From Flammeovirgaceae bacterium (GTDB lineage Bacteria; Bacteroidota; Bacteroidia; Cytophagales; Cyclobacteriaceae): a stretch of DNA of 35,046 bases. The stretch is taken from positions 1 to 35,046 of the forward strand of contig QIMC01000390.1 in assembly GCA_003232185.1 (NCBI GenBank), written 5' to 3'. The notes below the pieces were generated by a model that ran no database searches, was not told the origin of the DNA, and was given only the letters and a program-made list of their open reading frames with translations. Both the position numbers and the translations under genes were made by a program. Shown piece by piece: positions 485-16,059 of this stretch (positions are counted from its first letter, which is position 1; the number at the start of each line of letters is the position of its first letter).

Positions 485-621
485 AAAGATTATATGGTGT
501 CCCGTCCCGATAACTATCGGGAATCGGGAGGCGCCGGGGTCCACCCCTGCCTTTGGCAGGCAGGTCTATCATTCCGAACAGTTCGGAAGGTATACCAGGG
601 ATGCCCTGGGAGCTGTAAACC
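485..621 (+). pseudogene. Broken partial duplicate of the 5S rRNA 5' half
   Basis: Three blocks repeat the intact 5S gene exactly and in order: 485-499 equals 622-636 (15 bases), 531-545 equals 643-657 (15 bases), and 570-581 equals 664-675 (12 bases). The segment between blocks one and two is 31 bases here against 6 in the true gene. Between blocks two and three it is 24 bases against 6. After block three the similarity stops, and the 3' half of 5S is missing. Each unmatched segment contains a perfect short palindrome. The relic cannot form a normal 5S rRNA. It is best read as a tandem duplication invaded or rearranged by palindromic repeats, but an assembly chimera is not excluded. Confidence 0.75.
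505..609 (+). repeat. Cluster of four short perfect palindromes inside the 5S relic
   Basis: Four hairpins occur in about 100 bases: TCCCGATA/TATCGGGA at 505-522 (2-base loop), CCTGCC/GGCAGG at 546-560 (3-base loop), TTCCGAAC/GTTCGGAA at 572-588 (1-base loop), and CCAGGG/CCCTGG at 595-609 (3-base loop). An 8-base palindrome, GGTATACC, is also present at 589-596. The first two resemble GC-rich palindromes that I associate with dispersed intergenic repeats in Cytophagales genomes; that is from memory and was not searched. They would fold strongly in the rRNA transcript. Confidence 0.75.
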
Positions 622-629
622 AAAGATTA

Positions 630-740
630 TATGGTGATTATTGCGCCGGGGTCCACCTCTCTCCATTCCGAACAGAGCAGTTAAGCCCGGCCGCGCTGAT
701 GGTACTGCCTTCACCGGTGGGAGAGTAAGTCGTCGCCAGC
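630..740 (+). rRNA. rrf: 5S ribosomal RNA
   Basis: This is an intact 5S gene of about 110 nt. The terminal stem pairs TGGTGA (632-637) with TCGCCA (733-738). The conserved internal segment CCATTCCGAACAGAGCAGTT starts at 663, and the GATGGTACTG and GGTGGGAGAGTA segments typical of bacterial 5S follow. The ends are set from the terminal stem and may be off by a few bases. It follows 23S on the same strand and is followed by a strong terminator, so it closes the rRNA operon. Confidence 0.93.
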
Positions 741-750
741 CTTTATTAAA

Positions 751-781
751 GGGTACTACTGAGAAGTAGTGCCCTTTTTTA
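751..781 (+). terminator. Rho-independent terminator of the rRNA operon
   Basis: A 10-base-pair stem, GGGTACTACT/AGTAGTGCCC (one G-U pair, GAGA loop), is followed directly by TTTTTT. It lies 10 bases after the 5S 3' end and is a textbook intrinsic terminator. Confidence 0.92.
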
Positions 782-797
782 TTGCCTCCACAAACTA

Positions 798-950
798 ACT
801 TCTTTAAAAAATCGTTCCATAGCTGTGCCTCCGCTAAAGCTATGGCGACACGCGGAATGGCTATGTGCATATTTTTTGTCCCGAGTACTCGGGACCTGGG
901 AACAAAAATACCTGCGACTTATACCACACAGTACACTGAACTTAACACTA
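798..950 (-). repeat. Left copy of an inverted palindromic element (truncated)
   Basis: This stretch is the reverse complement of 2883-3039, with about 95% identity by eye and a few 1-3 base indels. It contains the perfect 18-base palindrome GTCCCGAGTACTCGGGAC, flanked by poly-T and poly-A, and further GC-rich inverted motifs. No convincing protein is encoded. Compared with the right copy it keeps the outer end, 12 bases of the 14-base terminal repeat at 939-950, but lacks about 57 bases at the other end, where it abuts the rRNA terminator. Most of the gene-free stretch between the terminator and the lipoprotein gene is this element. I see nothing else clear in 951-1144 beyond AT-rich sequence that may hold the lipoprotein promoter. 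Confidence 0.85.
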
Positions 951-9148: not shown

Positions 9149-10213
9149 ATGACATGGGATTACTTCATAGTAGGCCAGGGTCTGGCAGGGTCAATTTTGG
9201 CATACAAATTGCTCAAGCATGGTCTAAAGGTATTGGTATTCGATGACCCGGGTTTACTAAAATCAAGTACGGTTGCTGCTGGGATTTACAATCCGTTTAC
9301 TGGCAGAAAACTGGTCAAGACATATATGGCTGATCAACTTTTTCCATATCTACTGAGCTTTTATAAGGATCTGCAGCGGGAAATGGGGGTTCAATTACTT
9401 TATGAGTTACCTATGTACAGGCCTTTTCTTTCGGTGGAGGAACAAAATGAATGGGGAGCTCGATTGTTTGAGGATGGTTATAGTCAATATATTAATGGTA
9501 TCATAAAGCCAACCGAGGCACTTAATCAAGTGGTAAACCCTATGGGGGGATTGATGTTAAGAAAATCCGGATTCGTTGACACAGCAATATTGATCAATTC
9601 AATGACTGAACTTCTCAAGCAGCACAGCGCTTACCGATCCGAGCGATTTTTGTATCAAGAACTTAAATTATCTGAAGACCAGGTGGAGTACCAAAGCCAT
9701 TTGGCAAGGAAAGTGATATTTTGTGAAGGTCCATCATTGGGTAATAATGTATTTTTCAATTGGTTGCCGCTAATACCCGTAAAAGGAGAATTACTTGAAA
9801 TTGAGCTCCAGGAGCCACTAAACTGTATTGTTAATCGAGGAGTATTTATTCTACCGGTAAATGGCAGTCACTGTAAAGTGGGATCAACATTTGATCATGA
9901 GCACCTTAACTGGAAAGTAACTGAAAAGGCCAAGATCCAGTTACTTCAAAAGTTGAACAAGTTGATTAGTATTCCTTATCGTGTAACAGGACATACTGCT
10001 GGTGTCAGACCGGCATCTGCTGACAGGAGACCGTTCATTGGTTTGCACCCCAAGCACGAACCTTTAGGTATATTTAATGGTTTAGGAACCAAGGGTGTTT
10101 CATTGGCTCCTCATTTTGCAGAGGAGTTTTTTAATTATTTGGAGGGAGGGAAGCCTTTGGCTAAGGATGTGACTATTAGTCGCTATTTTTCTTTATATTA
10201 CAATAAAAATTAA
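9149..10213 (+). CDS. FAD-dependent oxidoreductase (DAO family)
   Basis: The 354-residue product starts with a Rossmann dinucleotide-binding fold: YFIVGQGLAGS (G9, G11, G14 of GxGxxG), then VFDDPG as the beta-2 end. It ends with GVRPASADRRPFIG and GLGTKGVSLAPHFAEEF, which match the C-terminal FAD-contacting part of the D-amino-acid oxidase/glycine oxidase superfamily. There is no signal peptide, so it is cytosolic. The segment AAGIYNPFTGRKLVKTY is typical of a Bacteroidota branch with no assigned substrate. The next gene begins 8 bases downstream on the same strand, so the two are probably co-transcribed. Confidence 0.85.
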   Translation: MTWDYFIVGQGLAGSILAYKLLKHGLKVLVFDDPGLLKSSTVAAGIYNPFTGRKLVKTYMADQLFPYLLSFYKDLQREMGVQLLYELPMYRPFLSVEEQNEWGARLFEDGYSQYINGIIKPTEALNQVVNPMGGLMLRKSGFVDTAILINSMTELLKQHSAYRSERFLYQELKLSEDQVEYQSHLARKVIFCEGPSLGNNVFFNWLPLIPVKGELLEIELQEPLNCIVNRGVFILPVNGSHCKVGSTFDHEHLNWKVTEKAKIQLLQKLNKLISIPYRVTGHTAGVRPASADRRPFIGLHPKHEPLGIFNGLGTKGVSLAPHFAEEFFNYLEGGKPLAKDVTISRYFSLYYNKN

Positions 10214-10221
10214 TCCAATTT

Positions 10222-13200
10222 ATGGCGCTCAGATCTATCTTATGCTCTGTGCTGGTAGTATTTTTTGTCTGCATTTTCGAAGATTCCAAAGGGCAGGATT
10301 ACACCGGTGATTTTGGAAAGAACAGGGTACAATACAAGAGATTCAACTGGCATTATTACAGCTCGGATAATTTCGATGTGTACTTTTATGAAGGCGGCAA
10401 ACAAAATGCTAAAAAAGCTGCCGAGTACCTGGAAGATGAATACGACCGCATCACCCAAGATGTACTAGGGTATGCCCTTTATTCTAAGGCGAAAATATTT
10501 ATCTACAATTCTATTTCTGATCTGCAACAAAGCAATATTGGTATAAACAACAAGGACTTTACTTCCAGTGGCCAAACTGATTTCGTGAAGCCTCAAGTGG
10601 AAGTTGCCTATCCGGGAGACGCTGTAGAATTCAAGCAAGAGTTAATTTTTCAGGTTTCTAAACTGCTTATCCGTGATATGATGTATGGAGGTAGCTTAAC
10701 GGAGATGTTTCAAAGCTCATACCTGTTTAACCTCCCGGACTGGGTAATTGATGGAGGTGCGCTATTCATTACCAATGGCTGGTCGGTGGAGATGGACGAT
10801 TACATGCGGGACTATTTCGAGACCAGGAAATTCAAGAAGCTAGGTAAACTTGGAGGAAAGGAGGCAGCTTTAGTTGGGCAGTCAATTTGGAATTATATCG
10901 CAGAAAATTATGGGCTTAACAATATCTCGAATATTTTAAACCTGACCCGAATCAATCGCAGTGAAAAAAATAGCATAATCTATACTTTGGGTATAACCTA
11001 TGATCGTTTCATCGCTGAATGGATGGCCTATTATGTAAACATGGCTGATCAGGTGAATGTTAGCTATCAGACTCCCAACAAGGGCTTTGCAATTCTTGGC
11101 GAGAATAAGAAGGGCTTGATCTACAATCAAGCAAAAATAAGTCCTAATGGAAACATTCTGGCTTATTCTACCAATTTCAACGGTAAACATGAAGTTCGAA
11201 TTAGAGACTTAACATCGGGGCGCGAAGAAACCGTTGTGAGAGGGGGCTATAAAGTGATTAATCAAGAGGTGGACGAGGATATTCCACTATTATCCTGGAA
11301 AGACAATAACACTTTGGGTATAATTAATGTTGATAAAGGTAACTATCAATTAATTCTACATGATATTGGCTCAGGAAGGTCTCAAAAACGAACCTTAAAG
11401 AAAATCACTCAGATAAAAGATTTTGAATTTCATGAGAACGGAAAGACAGCTATTGTAAGTGCAGATAGTAAAGGGCAGAATGACCTGTTTCTGCTTTCTT
11501 TGAGCAAAAACTCTTTAAGAAGGATTACTAATGATTCTCATGATGATTTAAATCCCAAGTTCTTGCCCGGCACCAACAATGTGGTCTTTTCATCTAATCG
11601 AACCAACGATACCTTAAAAAGAGAATCTCTCAAACTTAAAGATGTAGAGTCGAATTTTAATCTTTTTATACTCAACCTGGATTCACTGAGTAACGTACTG
11701 CACCGGGTAACCAATACATTGAGTCACGATATTCAACCGATGCCTCAAGACACTAATGTAATACATTACATTAGTGATCAAAAAGGTATATACAACCTGT
11801 ATAAATATGAATTAAGTAGCAAACTGTATACTCAAATATCCAAGCTCTCCAAAAGCATTAAGCATTATGACATCAATTTCAGAAAGGGTTCAATGGTCTA
11901 TGTGATAAACTTTGCAGGAGCGGATCAAATCTTCTATCAGGGAAATTTCAATCTGAACCAGAATAACTTTACCCCTCAAACTCGACGCCAGGAGATTAAG
12001 CAGGCCTTGTTTGTTTCCGGTCGAATAAGGGACCGTAAACTACGGGAGCTTGAACAATTAGAGAATGATCCTGGGCTCCAGGATACGTTAAAACTTGATC
12101 TATTCCAACCTACAGACAGCATCTCAATGGATGACACAAGCGAGCCCACTGGTGCAATTGATACTGACAATTATGTATTCGATACGGATGTCTTGGAGGG
12201 TATTAATCAGGAAGAAGAGGAGCCTAGTTCTATTTTGCAAAATTTCAGAAGGTTATCCAGAGAAAGTGAAATTAACGGCCCTTTTAATTACGAACCTCGA
12301 GTGGGATTCGACAACATTGTTTTTTCCTGGGTAATAGATCCGTTAATTGGATTTGGTATTCAAGCGGAAGTTACAGTCAATGATCTATTAGAAAACCATA
12401 AGTTTTATGGTGGGGTATTGGCAACCACCGATCTCCGAAGTGGTAGCTACTACGGAGAGTATCATTATTTAAAAGATCGCCTGGATTACCATGCGGGGTT
12501 CAGTCGACGGACTGTTTACCGAACTATCAATGACCCTATTGACGATTTTGACATCAAATATGTTAAGAGCAGGGTGGAGATTGGGGCCAGTTACCCCATA
12601 AATATCAGGAGTAGAATTAGAGTTACACCATTTTACACTGGAACCAGATCATATGACCTGGACCCCGATAAATTGAGTTTTCCTCCAGGAACTCCAGGCC
12701 AACAGGATCCTGCTGATACCAAACGCGATTATTTTGGGGGTCGGTTGGAGTATGTATACGACAATACGGTGGTGAATGGATTGAATTTCGAAGGGACCAG
12801 GCTCAAGGCCTTTTTTGAACATTATGAAAGTTTCAATAACAGCCAATTGAATTTTAATACCTTTAAAATTGATGTTAGACATTACTATAAAATTCATCGG
12901 GATTTAATATTTGCCGGCCGGTTGTTCTATGCGCGTTCCTTCGGAAATGACCCCAAAGATTTTTTGCTGGGGGGGATGAGCAACTGGATGTTTAACGATA
13001 CGGATAATGAAAATAATGAAGGAGATCCGTTAAATGATCCAGTTGATAAGGACAACAGTGACATACTTTTTGTTGAGTATGTAACTAATATGCGGGGATT
13101 CGACTACAATAAATTTAGCGGAAATAATGCATTGTTATTTAATGCGGAACTAAGGTTCCCAATAGTCAAATTTTTCAATAGTGGCCCAATCGCATCAAAC

Positions 13201-13482
13201 TTTTTTCGAAACCTACAACTAATTGGGTTTTATGACTTTGGCTCTGCTTGGACTGGCAATAGCCCTCTGGCCGATGAAAATAGTCTGAACACAGAGATTA
13301 TTGAGGCAGGTAACTTTAGGGCCAGAATCAATAACTTTGGAAGTGCCTGGCTGGCTAGTTATGGAACAGGTATCCGAACAGTACTGCTCGGATACTACCT
13401 GAAATTTGATGTAGCCTGGCCAATAGAAGATTTCGAAGTTGGCTCTCCCAAATTTTACCTTACCCTTGGATATGATTTTTAA
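10222..13482 (+). CDS. Degenerate peptidase-MA + TolB propeller + outer-membrane barrel protein
   Basis: This is a large (1086 residues) predicted outer-membrane protein with a signal peptide (about residues 1-24). Residues 30-290 resemble a peptidase MA/gluzincin domain, with LPDWVIDGGALF where active relatives have a W-x-x-E-G motif. The HExxH helix is degenerate: Q139-E140-L-I-F143 in place of the two His. Residues about 290-590 look like a TolB/WD40-type beta-propeller, with repeats such as ISPNGNILAYSTN and LNPKFLPGTNNVVFSSN. The rest, from about 690, is strand-rich and ends LTLGYDF with a terminal aromatic, as in BamA/surface-antigen barrels. The acidic region around residues 630-675 is probably a linker. 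Function is unknown; a surface-exposed structural or binding role is an inference. It is cotranscribed with the oxidoreductase. Confidence 0.8.
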   Translation: MALRSILCSVLVVFFVCIFEDSKGQDYTGDFGKNRVQYKRFNWHYYSSDNFDVYFYEGGKQNAKKAAEYLEDEYDRITQDVLGYALYSKAKIFIYNSISDLQQSNIGINNKDFTSSGQTDFVKPQVEVAYPGDAVEFKQELIFQVSKLLIRDMMYGGSLTEMFQSSYLFNLPDWVIDGGALFITNGWSVEMDDYMRDYFETRKFKKLGKLGGKEAALVGQSIWNYIAENYGLNNISNILNLTRINRSEKNSIIYTLGITYDRFIAEWMAYYVNMADQVNVSYQTPNKGFAILGENKKGLIYNQAKISPNGNILAYSTNFNGKHEVRIRDLTSGREETVVRGGYKVINQEVDEDIPLLSWKDNNTLGIINVDKGNYQLILHDIGSGRSQKRTLKKITQIKDFEFHENGKTAIVSADSKGQNDLFLLSLSKNSLRRITNDSHDDLNPKFLPGTNNVVFSSNRTNDTLKRESLKLKDVESNFNLFILNLDSLSNVLHRVTNTLSHDIQPMPQDTNVIHYISDQKGIYNLYKYELSSKLYTQISKLSKSIKHYDINFRKGSMVYVINFAGADQIFYQGNFNLNQNNFTPQTRRQEIKQALFVSGRIRDRKLRELEQLENDPGLQDTLKLDLFQPTDSISMDDTSEPTGAIDTDNYVFDTDVLEGINQEEEEPSSILQNFRRLSRESEINGPFNYEPRVGFDNIVFSWVIDPLIGFGIQAEVTVNDLLENHKFYGGVLATTDLRSGSYYGEYHYLKDRLDYHAGFSRRTVYRTINDPIDDFDIKYVKSRVEIGASYPINIRSRIRVTPFYTGTRSYDLDPDKLSFPPGTPGQQDPADTKRDYFGGRLEYVYDNTVVNGLNFEGTRLKAFFEHYESFNNSQLNFNTFKIDVRHYYKIHRDLIFAGRLFYARSFGNDPKDFLLGGMSNWMFNDTDNENNEGDPLNDPVDKDNSDILFVEYVTNMRGFDYNKFSGNNALLFNAELRFPIVKFFNSGPIASNFFRNLQLIGFYDFGSAWTGNSPLADENSLNTEIIEAGNFRARINNFGSAWLASYGTGIRTVLLGYYLKFDVAWPIEDFEVGSPKFYLTLGYDF

Positions 13483-14621: not shown

Positions 14622-15296
14622 CTATTGCAGTCTAAATATAATTGGTAGCTGCATTCTAACTCGCACCGGGCGACCACGTTGCTTACCAGGCTTCCATTTT
14701 GGTGCTCCATTCAACACTCGGATAGCTTCTTCATCACAACCAGCACCAATTCCTTTTAAAACCTTTACTTCAGTTAGTGTTCCGTCTTTGCCTACCACAA
14801 ATGAAACATAAACTTTTCCCTCAATACCCATTCGTCTAGCTTGGGCAGGATATTTCATTTGTTTTGAAATGTAGCCATAGAAAGCTTTCAGACCGCCTGT
14901 AGGTGTAGGTTGATCTTCAACGAATTGAAAGATTTCATCAGCAGCTTCTTCATCAGGAGCTTCTTCAAAAATAACATCTTCAATTACTGTTTCTTCAGTA
15001 ACTTCAACGTCAAGGTTTACATCGATCTCTTCTTCAATTTCCTCTTCATCAGGAACCTCGATAATTTCCGGAGGTGTTACCTGAGGAGGAGGAGGAGGAG
15101 GCTGTTCGGTAATTGGAATATCCTGTAGCTCTTCAAAATCAGCATCTAAACTTCCTAGGTTTACTAAATCGCTGTCATCATAAGACCTCCACTCAAAGGC
15201 TGTTACTGCAAATAACAAGCTGAACATCATTCCTATGCTCATATAGAAGCTGGACTTTCTAAAAAGGTCAGCATCTGGGTGTTTTTTGTATTCCAT
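14622..15296 (-). CDS. TonB family energy transducer (paralogue 1)
   Basis: TonB links the inner-membrane proton-motive force, through ExbB/ExbD, to outer-membrane TonB-dependent transporters. The 224-residue product has one N-terminal membrane helix (about residues 17-34) and a periplasmic linker with a run of six prolines near residue 66, followed by a very acidic Glu/Asp stretch. The C-terminal TonB domain is in about residues 135-224 (MKYPAQARRMGIEGKVYVSF, GIGAGCDEEAIRVL, PKWKPGKQRGRPV). It is a tandem paralogue of the next gene upstream, and the C-terminal halves are largely identical. It has its own promoter candidate at 15335-15367. No exbB or exbD is in the window. Confidence 0.93.
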   Translation of the reverse strand: MEYKKHPDADLFRKSSFYMSIGMMFSLLFAVTAFEWRSYDDSDLVNLGSLDADFEELQDIPITEQPPPPPPQVTPPEIIEVPDEEEIEEEIDVNLDVEVTEETVIEDVIFEEAPDEEAADEIFQFVEDQPTPTGGLKAFYGYISKQMKYPAQARRMGIEGKVYVSFVVGKDGTLTEVKVLKGIGAGCDEEAIRVLNGAPKWKPGKQRGRPVRVRMQLPIIFRLQ

Positions 15297-15334
15297 ACTA
15301 TAAAATTATATAAAGGGTAGAATACCCACTAATT

Positions 15335-15367
15335 CAAATATACGAAAGAAATCATCTACTGTCCAAT
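15335..15367 (-). promoter_or_regulatory. Bacteroidota-type promoter for tonB paralogue 1
   Basis: On the minus strand, ATTG (15367-15364) is followed by 21 bases and then TATATTTG (15342-15335), a perfect TAnnTTTG -7 element with a 3-of-4 -33 element at an accepted spacing. It ends 39 bases before the start codon. It indicates that this tonB copy can be expressed separately from the upstream copy. Confidence 0.7.
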
Positions 15368-15396
15368 ATCTTTTTTACCAAATGTTGCTAAGCCGT

Positions 15397-16059
15397 CTAG
15401 TTAAGCCTAAAGAAAATAGGTAGCCTCATCCTTGTCTTTACCGGATGGGCTCCTTGCCTGCCTGGATTCCACTTTGGCACCAGACCTATTACCCGAATTG
15501 CTTCTTCATCGCAGCCGGCGCCTATACCTTTTAATAGAGTAATATTGGTTATAGTGCCGTCTTTTTCTACTACAAAACTAACATATACTTTTCCTTCAGT
15601 TTTCGTACTAATGGCCCTTCTTGGATATTTAATGTGCTCGCTAATAAATTTATAGAAGCTACTCATACCACCTATAGGTTCTGCATAAACTTCTGGAAAA
15701 TCATACATAATATCCGGTTCTTCATCGATAGGGGCAGCAATGACCAGCTCTTCTATTTTGTCGTCTTGTAAGGTCTCGACATCGAAAATGTGTGGTTCGA
15801 TGTCGATTTCTACCTCATCAGGAACTTCAATTACCGCACGAGGAAGAATAGGCTTCGGAGGTTGTTGAATGGTAATCGTTATATCAATCAAGTCATCAAA
15901 ATTATCTTTCAGGTGATAAGGTTCTATCACGATTGCTTTATATGGGCTTTTCCATTCAAAGGCAGTAACTATAAACAGAAGGCTTAACATCAAACCGATA
16001 CTCATAAAGAACATTGATTTTTTGTACAAATCGGAATTCAGATTTTTCTTTAGTTCCAT
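15397..16059 (-). CDS. TonB family energy transducer (paralogue 2)
   Basis: A 220-residue TonB paralogue. The single N-terminal helix (MFFMSIGLMLSLLFIVTAFEW) and the C-terminal domain (KYPRRA, EGKVYVSFVVEKDGT, LLKGIGAGCDEEAIRV, PIFFRLN) closely match the neighbouring copy. The linker differs: the six-proline run is reduced to QQPPKPILPRA, and the Glu/Asp-rich part is shorter. So the duplicates kept the membrane anchor and receptor-binding domain while the spanning linker diverged, which may reflect different partners. It lies 58 bases after the VanZ-like gene, in the same direction as the sprA cluster. Confidence 0.92.
   Translation of the reverse strand: MELKKNLNSDLYKKSMFFMSIGLMLSLLFIVTAFEWKSPYKAIVIEPYHLKDNFDDLIDITITIQQPPKPILPRAVIEVPDEVEIDIEPHIFDVETLQDDKIEELVIAAPIDEEPDIMYDFPEVYAEPIGGMSSFYKFISEHIKYPRRAISTKTEGKVYVSFVVEKDGTITNITLLKGIGAGCDEEAIRVIGLVPKWNPGRQGAHPVKTRMRLPIFFRLN

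Follow-up and report, generated by a model that had tools for sequence, protein, structure and literature searches.

The window analysed here (the whole 35,046-nt stretch, QIMC01000390.1) carries, in this order, porV, porU, pssA, an MBL-fold gene, an FAD-dependent oxidoreductase gene (DAO), the long ORF under study (hereafter the target), yicC, two tonB-like genes, a vanZ-like gene, gcvH, sprA and ruvA, the last assigned by inspection. The contig starts with the 3′ end of a 23S rRNA gene (1–351) and a 5S rRNA gene (630–741); a 118-aa ORF (514–870, minus strand) lies antisense to the latter and is probably spurious. Two adjoining TonB-C-domain proteins alike in make-up, likely tandem duplicates, are encoded at 14622–16059, between the target region and vanZ/gcvH/sprA. 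Parts of the window gene order recur in loci from the same order (Cytophagales), most of which have DAO directly upstream of the target, and the two genes are probably co-transcribed within the order. In the wider class (Bacteroidia) it is mostly the MBL-fold gene that still adjoins the target. The main features are:

9149–10213, plus strand: FAD-dependent oxidoreductase (DAO; PF01266), ending 8 bases upstream of the target
10222–13482, plus strand: target ORF, an open frame of 1086 codons encoding a pseudo-peptidase domain, a TolB-like propeller and an Omp85 barrel (1086 aa)
10222–10296, plus strand: probable N-terminal signal peptide, residues ~1–25, with putative type I cleavage
10309–11091, plus strand: gluzincin-fold (Peptidase_MA-like) N-domain, residues ~30–290, apparently catalytically dead (PF13485 matches of homologs, structure matches)
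10648–10662, plus strand: former HExxH, now F143-Q144-V145-S146-K147 (lined up without gaps with HELVH in intact homologs)
10750–10752, plus strand: former third zinc ligand, now D177 (E in homologs; W174-x-x-D177-G178 against W-x-x-E-G)
11107–11961, plus strand: TolB-like beta-propeller, residues ~296–580 (TIGR02800, TolB structures, strands at 300–573)
11983–12261, plus strand: helix 588–614 and disordered acidic linker 619–679 (pLDDT <50 at 619–679)
12274–13479, plus strand: Omp85/BamA-type barrel, residues 685–1086, with 16 long strands (NF047779, strand list, BamA matches)
13093–13101, plus strand: Omp85 loop-6 type motif R958-G959-F960 (MRGF; conserved in orthologs)

The initial annotation had described a 1086-aa chain of three modules here, and its coordinates, length and make-up are borne out by the open frame, domain matches, AlphaFold and Foldseek; the three-module architecture is near certain. 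In the full-length AlphaFold model (pLDDT 82, pTM 0.78) an alpha/beta domain (44–283) is followed by the propeller (300–573), a disordered stretch (619–679), the least conserved part of the protein, and a barrel from residue 685. Structure prediction, put forward earlier as a check of domain limits and strand count, gives a BamA-type barrel of 16 strands, this being the number of long strands in the DSSP list of the model. NCBIfam searches matched TIGR02800 (TolB propeller; E 5.5e-15) and NF047779 (Omp85_fam; E 2.4e-12), Pfam returned weak propeller matches alone, and no POTRA match was found in either collection. Foldseek against the PDB paired the propeller with TolB structures (E ~1e-9) and the barrel with BamA barrels (E ~1e-9, TMt up to 0.64). 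Barrel residues R958 and G959 are each conserved in at least 92% of dead and intact orthologs taken together, and two further Omp85 barrel motifs (E976-R978-P980 and F1003-D1005-G1007-W1010) are conserved as well. At the N-terminus, the model has a hydrophobic helix (2–16) and a low-confidence stretch (13–29), homologs have similar leaders, and inspection of the target leader revealed no lipobox-type sequence. Signal peptide and barrel point to an outer-membrane location.

The N-domain modelled alone (pLDDT 83) matched clostridial and Vibrio collagenase peptidase domains and M1 aminopeptidases in the PDB (best E 2.9e-4), all of which are gluzincins. The same model matched large uncharacterised baculovirus proteins in BFVD (E ~1e-4), probably reflecting the common gluzincin fold.

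Of 59 nearby genomes, 58 carry a relative of the target, full length in most cases, and two close relatives come from MAGs assigned to Flammeovirgaceae and Cyclobacteriaceae. Across the phylum, 220 of 297 genomes have a match, some of these being partial or propeller-only; this distribution argues against a chance ORF. A profile search gave matches in 242 of 247 class genomes, the weak ones (e.g. in families f24 and f25) spanning the propeller alone. The complete chain of three modules occurs widely in Bacteroidota, and the combination of propeller and barrel is itself a named Omp85 subfamily (PMC4104836), so the earlier view that these modules are normally found apart does not hold for this phylum.

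Orthologs from outside the class match PF13485 (Peptidase_MA_2) above its cut-off (e.g. 50.7, 56.3 and 56.4 bits vs 32.4), and the same proteins also match PD40 and, in one case, Omp85; the target N-domain itself has no PF13485 match in the Pfam search. Within an ungapped block running from G132 to Y155-G156-G157, HHELVHA of the homologs corresponds to I142-F143-Q144-V145-S146-K147-L148 of the target, so that F143, Q144 and K147 stand in place of H, E and H, and D177 in place of the glutamate that serves as third ligand. Every outside-class ortholog (16/16) and every shorter paralog (14/14) carries H/E/H/E at 143/144/147/177, as against 0/83 of the in-class orthologs. On the tree (FastTree, with residues 130–180 left out) the state of the site changes once, and because Peptidase_MA proteins more widely have the site intact, this single change was probably a loss and not a gain. 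Compared with PF13485 gluzincins, the target N-domain has the same fold and none of the four site residues, while outside-class orthologs also keep HExxH...E; judged from its sequence, the domain is a dead relative of Peptidase_MA and not an active member. The initial annotation had listed Q139, F143 and D177 as lost ligands. Loss of the site and the position of D177 stand, but the ungapped alignment rules out the HExxH register Q139-E140-x-x-F143, which lies one helical turn upstream of the true site. A second, shorter three-module relative (~1,020–1,050 aa) with an intact HELVHAF..EGMAEY site is found sporadically in the same class, and some genomes have it alongside the dead form.

Within the order, mean pairwise identity is highest in the N-domain (46.6%, vs 42.4% for the barrel and 33.6% for the propeller), and the dead domain, as the best-conserved module, appears to have been repurposed rather than left to decay. 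Comparison of the target with an 86%-identical relative gave dN 0.055 and dS ~1.8 for the N-domain, a ratio of 0.03 that is rough, dS being near saturation, yet far below 1; by this measure the domain is under purifying selection in its dead form. The earlier proposal that it binds rather than cuts is well supported, the site being lost in every in-class ortholog sampled and the domain best conserved within the order, and such conservation suggests that the dead N-domain binds a client or partner.

Outside the class, a gene for a TamB/AsmA-type protein (~1,500–1,580 aa), rnr (RNase R) and the target share a strand in 15 of 26 loci (8 families); the 26 loci were chosen among the best phylum-search matches, and the 15 share ancestry, are not independent and may be one ancestral arrangement. 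An RNase R gene thus sits between two envelope genes here. Two of six array TamBs scanned match Pfam TamB (7e-36 and 7e-23) and the others match at the DUF748/AsmA start only, the family membership of array proteins with no Pfam TamB match coming from clustering. No such array is present in the window or in any in-class locus examined. In-class genomes tested carry TamL next to or alongside TamB, TamL being a gene separate from the target in the same genomes. A tree of array TamBs with in-class TamBs groups by taxonomy, with long branches, although best scores favour the non-TamL TamB as the candidate in-class ortholog.

The best explanation identifies the target as an outer-membrane protein of WD40-Omp85 type that acts in outer-membrane building, the functional part being tentative, at a little under an even chance. 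Barrel class, absence of POTRA domains and tamB linkage together suggest an accessory of outer-membrane assembly or lipid transport resembling TAM or BAM; the Omp85 barrel and the tamB-rnr-target arrays outside the class likewise back the ‘envelope assembly’ role suggested initially. The gluzincin-fold domain and TolB-like propeller would take the place of POTRA domains beneath a BamA-type barrel working as a platform for assembly or insertion. In Omp85 proteins the domains that precede the barrel normally lie on the periplasmic side, as the N-terminal part of the target presumably does. Its partners in outer-membrane building or maintenance would be TamB-like proteins; the intact form would cut, and the dead form would do no more than hold a client or partner. 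The tamB linkage belongs to the intact form, and a different partner is possible for the dead form; the step from this linkage to the function of the dead form is the weakest link in the argument.

A role in periplasmic quality control, in which misfolded outer-membrane proteins are degraded by the intact form but captured by the dead form, to be passed to another protease or to BAM, is possible, with perhaps half the weight of a role in outer-membrane building. The Peptidase_MA fold and the intact site of relatives are in keeping with it, as is the conservation of the dead domain if it serves in binding; no protease gene consistently adjoins the target, so that any such partner would be encoded elsewhere. 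Against it, neither a substrate nor a partner protease is known. This role also overlaps the best explanation, and sequence cannot separate the two.

The initial annotation had taken proximity to type IX secretion (T9SS) genes as a reason to test a link to secretion, and nothing beyond gene neighbourhood supports that link. Within the order the target does lie between porV-porU and gcvH-sprA, as would suit an accessory that uses its dead domain and propeller to keep a T9SS component or cargo in place at the outer membrane. Outside the order, however, a porV-porU neighbourhood was found in only 1 of 10 class loci (20-kb loci), and the phylogenetic profile against sprA, also proposed earlier, shows no matching co-occurrence. 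SprA (TIGR04189) was detected in 230 of 297 phylum genomes; of those listed with no target match in the phylum search, 17 from family f25, 2 from f24 and 1 from f27 all have it. Among those re-searched with a sensitive profile, nothing beyond propeller-level matches appeared. At least 18 SprA-positive genomes (families f24 and f25, plus f27) have no full-length relative, and the target is therefore dispensable for T9SS-bearing genomes. The SprA profile disfavours a role in the T9SS core, and an accessory role seems unlikely. The case is a caution against inferring function from adjacent T9SS genes.

The N-terminal regions of Omp85 proteins being generally periplasmic, a surface position of the target N-domains would by analogy be less likely than a periplasmic one, and the tamB linkage also suggests a periplasmic partner. 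Export of the N-terminal domains through the protein's own barrel, for display on the surface, is slightly less probable still than T9SS accessory function, despite the resemblance to PlpD, a patatin-type Omp85 protein with an N-terminal effector domain fused to the barrel and for which export of this domain has been suggested (PMC4104836). That the in-class N-domain relies on other residues for catalysis or metal binding is the least probable of these alternatives, and highly improbable: the domain is strongly conserved and acids E71, E127 and D192 are conserved within the order, but residues of the former site vary widely among in-class orthologs and the alignment has no N-domain His or Cys conserved within order or class, which disfavours a relocated metal site.

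Among known systems, the target is closest to the WD40-Omp85 subfamily defined by Heinz and Lithgow in 2014, who liken it to a BamA-BamB fusion (PMC4104836). As in the target, a TolB-like propeller lies N-terminal to an Omp85 barrel with no POTRA domains, and by this domain make-up the target fits the subfamily. The text of that paper mentions no peptidase domain in the subfamily, and neither the lost site nor the tamB array. No experiments on any member were found in the literature covered. The propeller has the same fold as TolB and a similar sequence but is fused to a barrel and a peptidase-fold domain, and the target scores 55 bits against an equivalog cut-off of 343.

TamB is the known partner of the Omp85 proteins TamA and TamL (PMC4494059, PMC12045153), and term searches of these papers gave no WD40-Omp85-TamB link. 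As in TAM, an Omp85 barrel gene is arrayed with tamB in 15 of 26 outside-class loci, but not in the window or in the in-class loci examined. Unlike TamA and TamL, the target has no POTRA domains; unlike TamL, it is not a lipoprotein; and rnr lies between tamB and the target in the arrays. Without POTRA domains and a lipid anchor of TamL type, it falls outside the definition of a TAM member. The pairing of propeller and Omp85 barrel is already known (PMC4104836), and what is new is the Peptidase_MA N-domain, whose site was lost once in the class while the domain stayed conserved, together with the tamB-rnr-target array outside the class. The target could conceivably exemplify a third type of Omp85 machine coupled to TamB, in which a barrel lacking POTRA domains carries a gluzincin peptidase and a TolB propeller in the periplasm, and which became a pseudo-peptidase platform for assembly or lipid transport at the base of the class, although this fuller reading is rather unlikely as it stands. 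The analysis accounts for a nearly universal yet uncharacterised outer-membrane protein of the order, provides a clean natural experiment in which a domain has long stayed conserved after a single loss of its peptidase site, and links a non-POTRA Omp85 protein to TamB in testable form.
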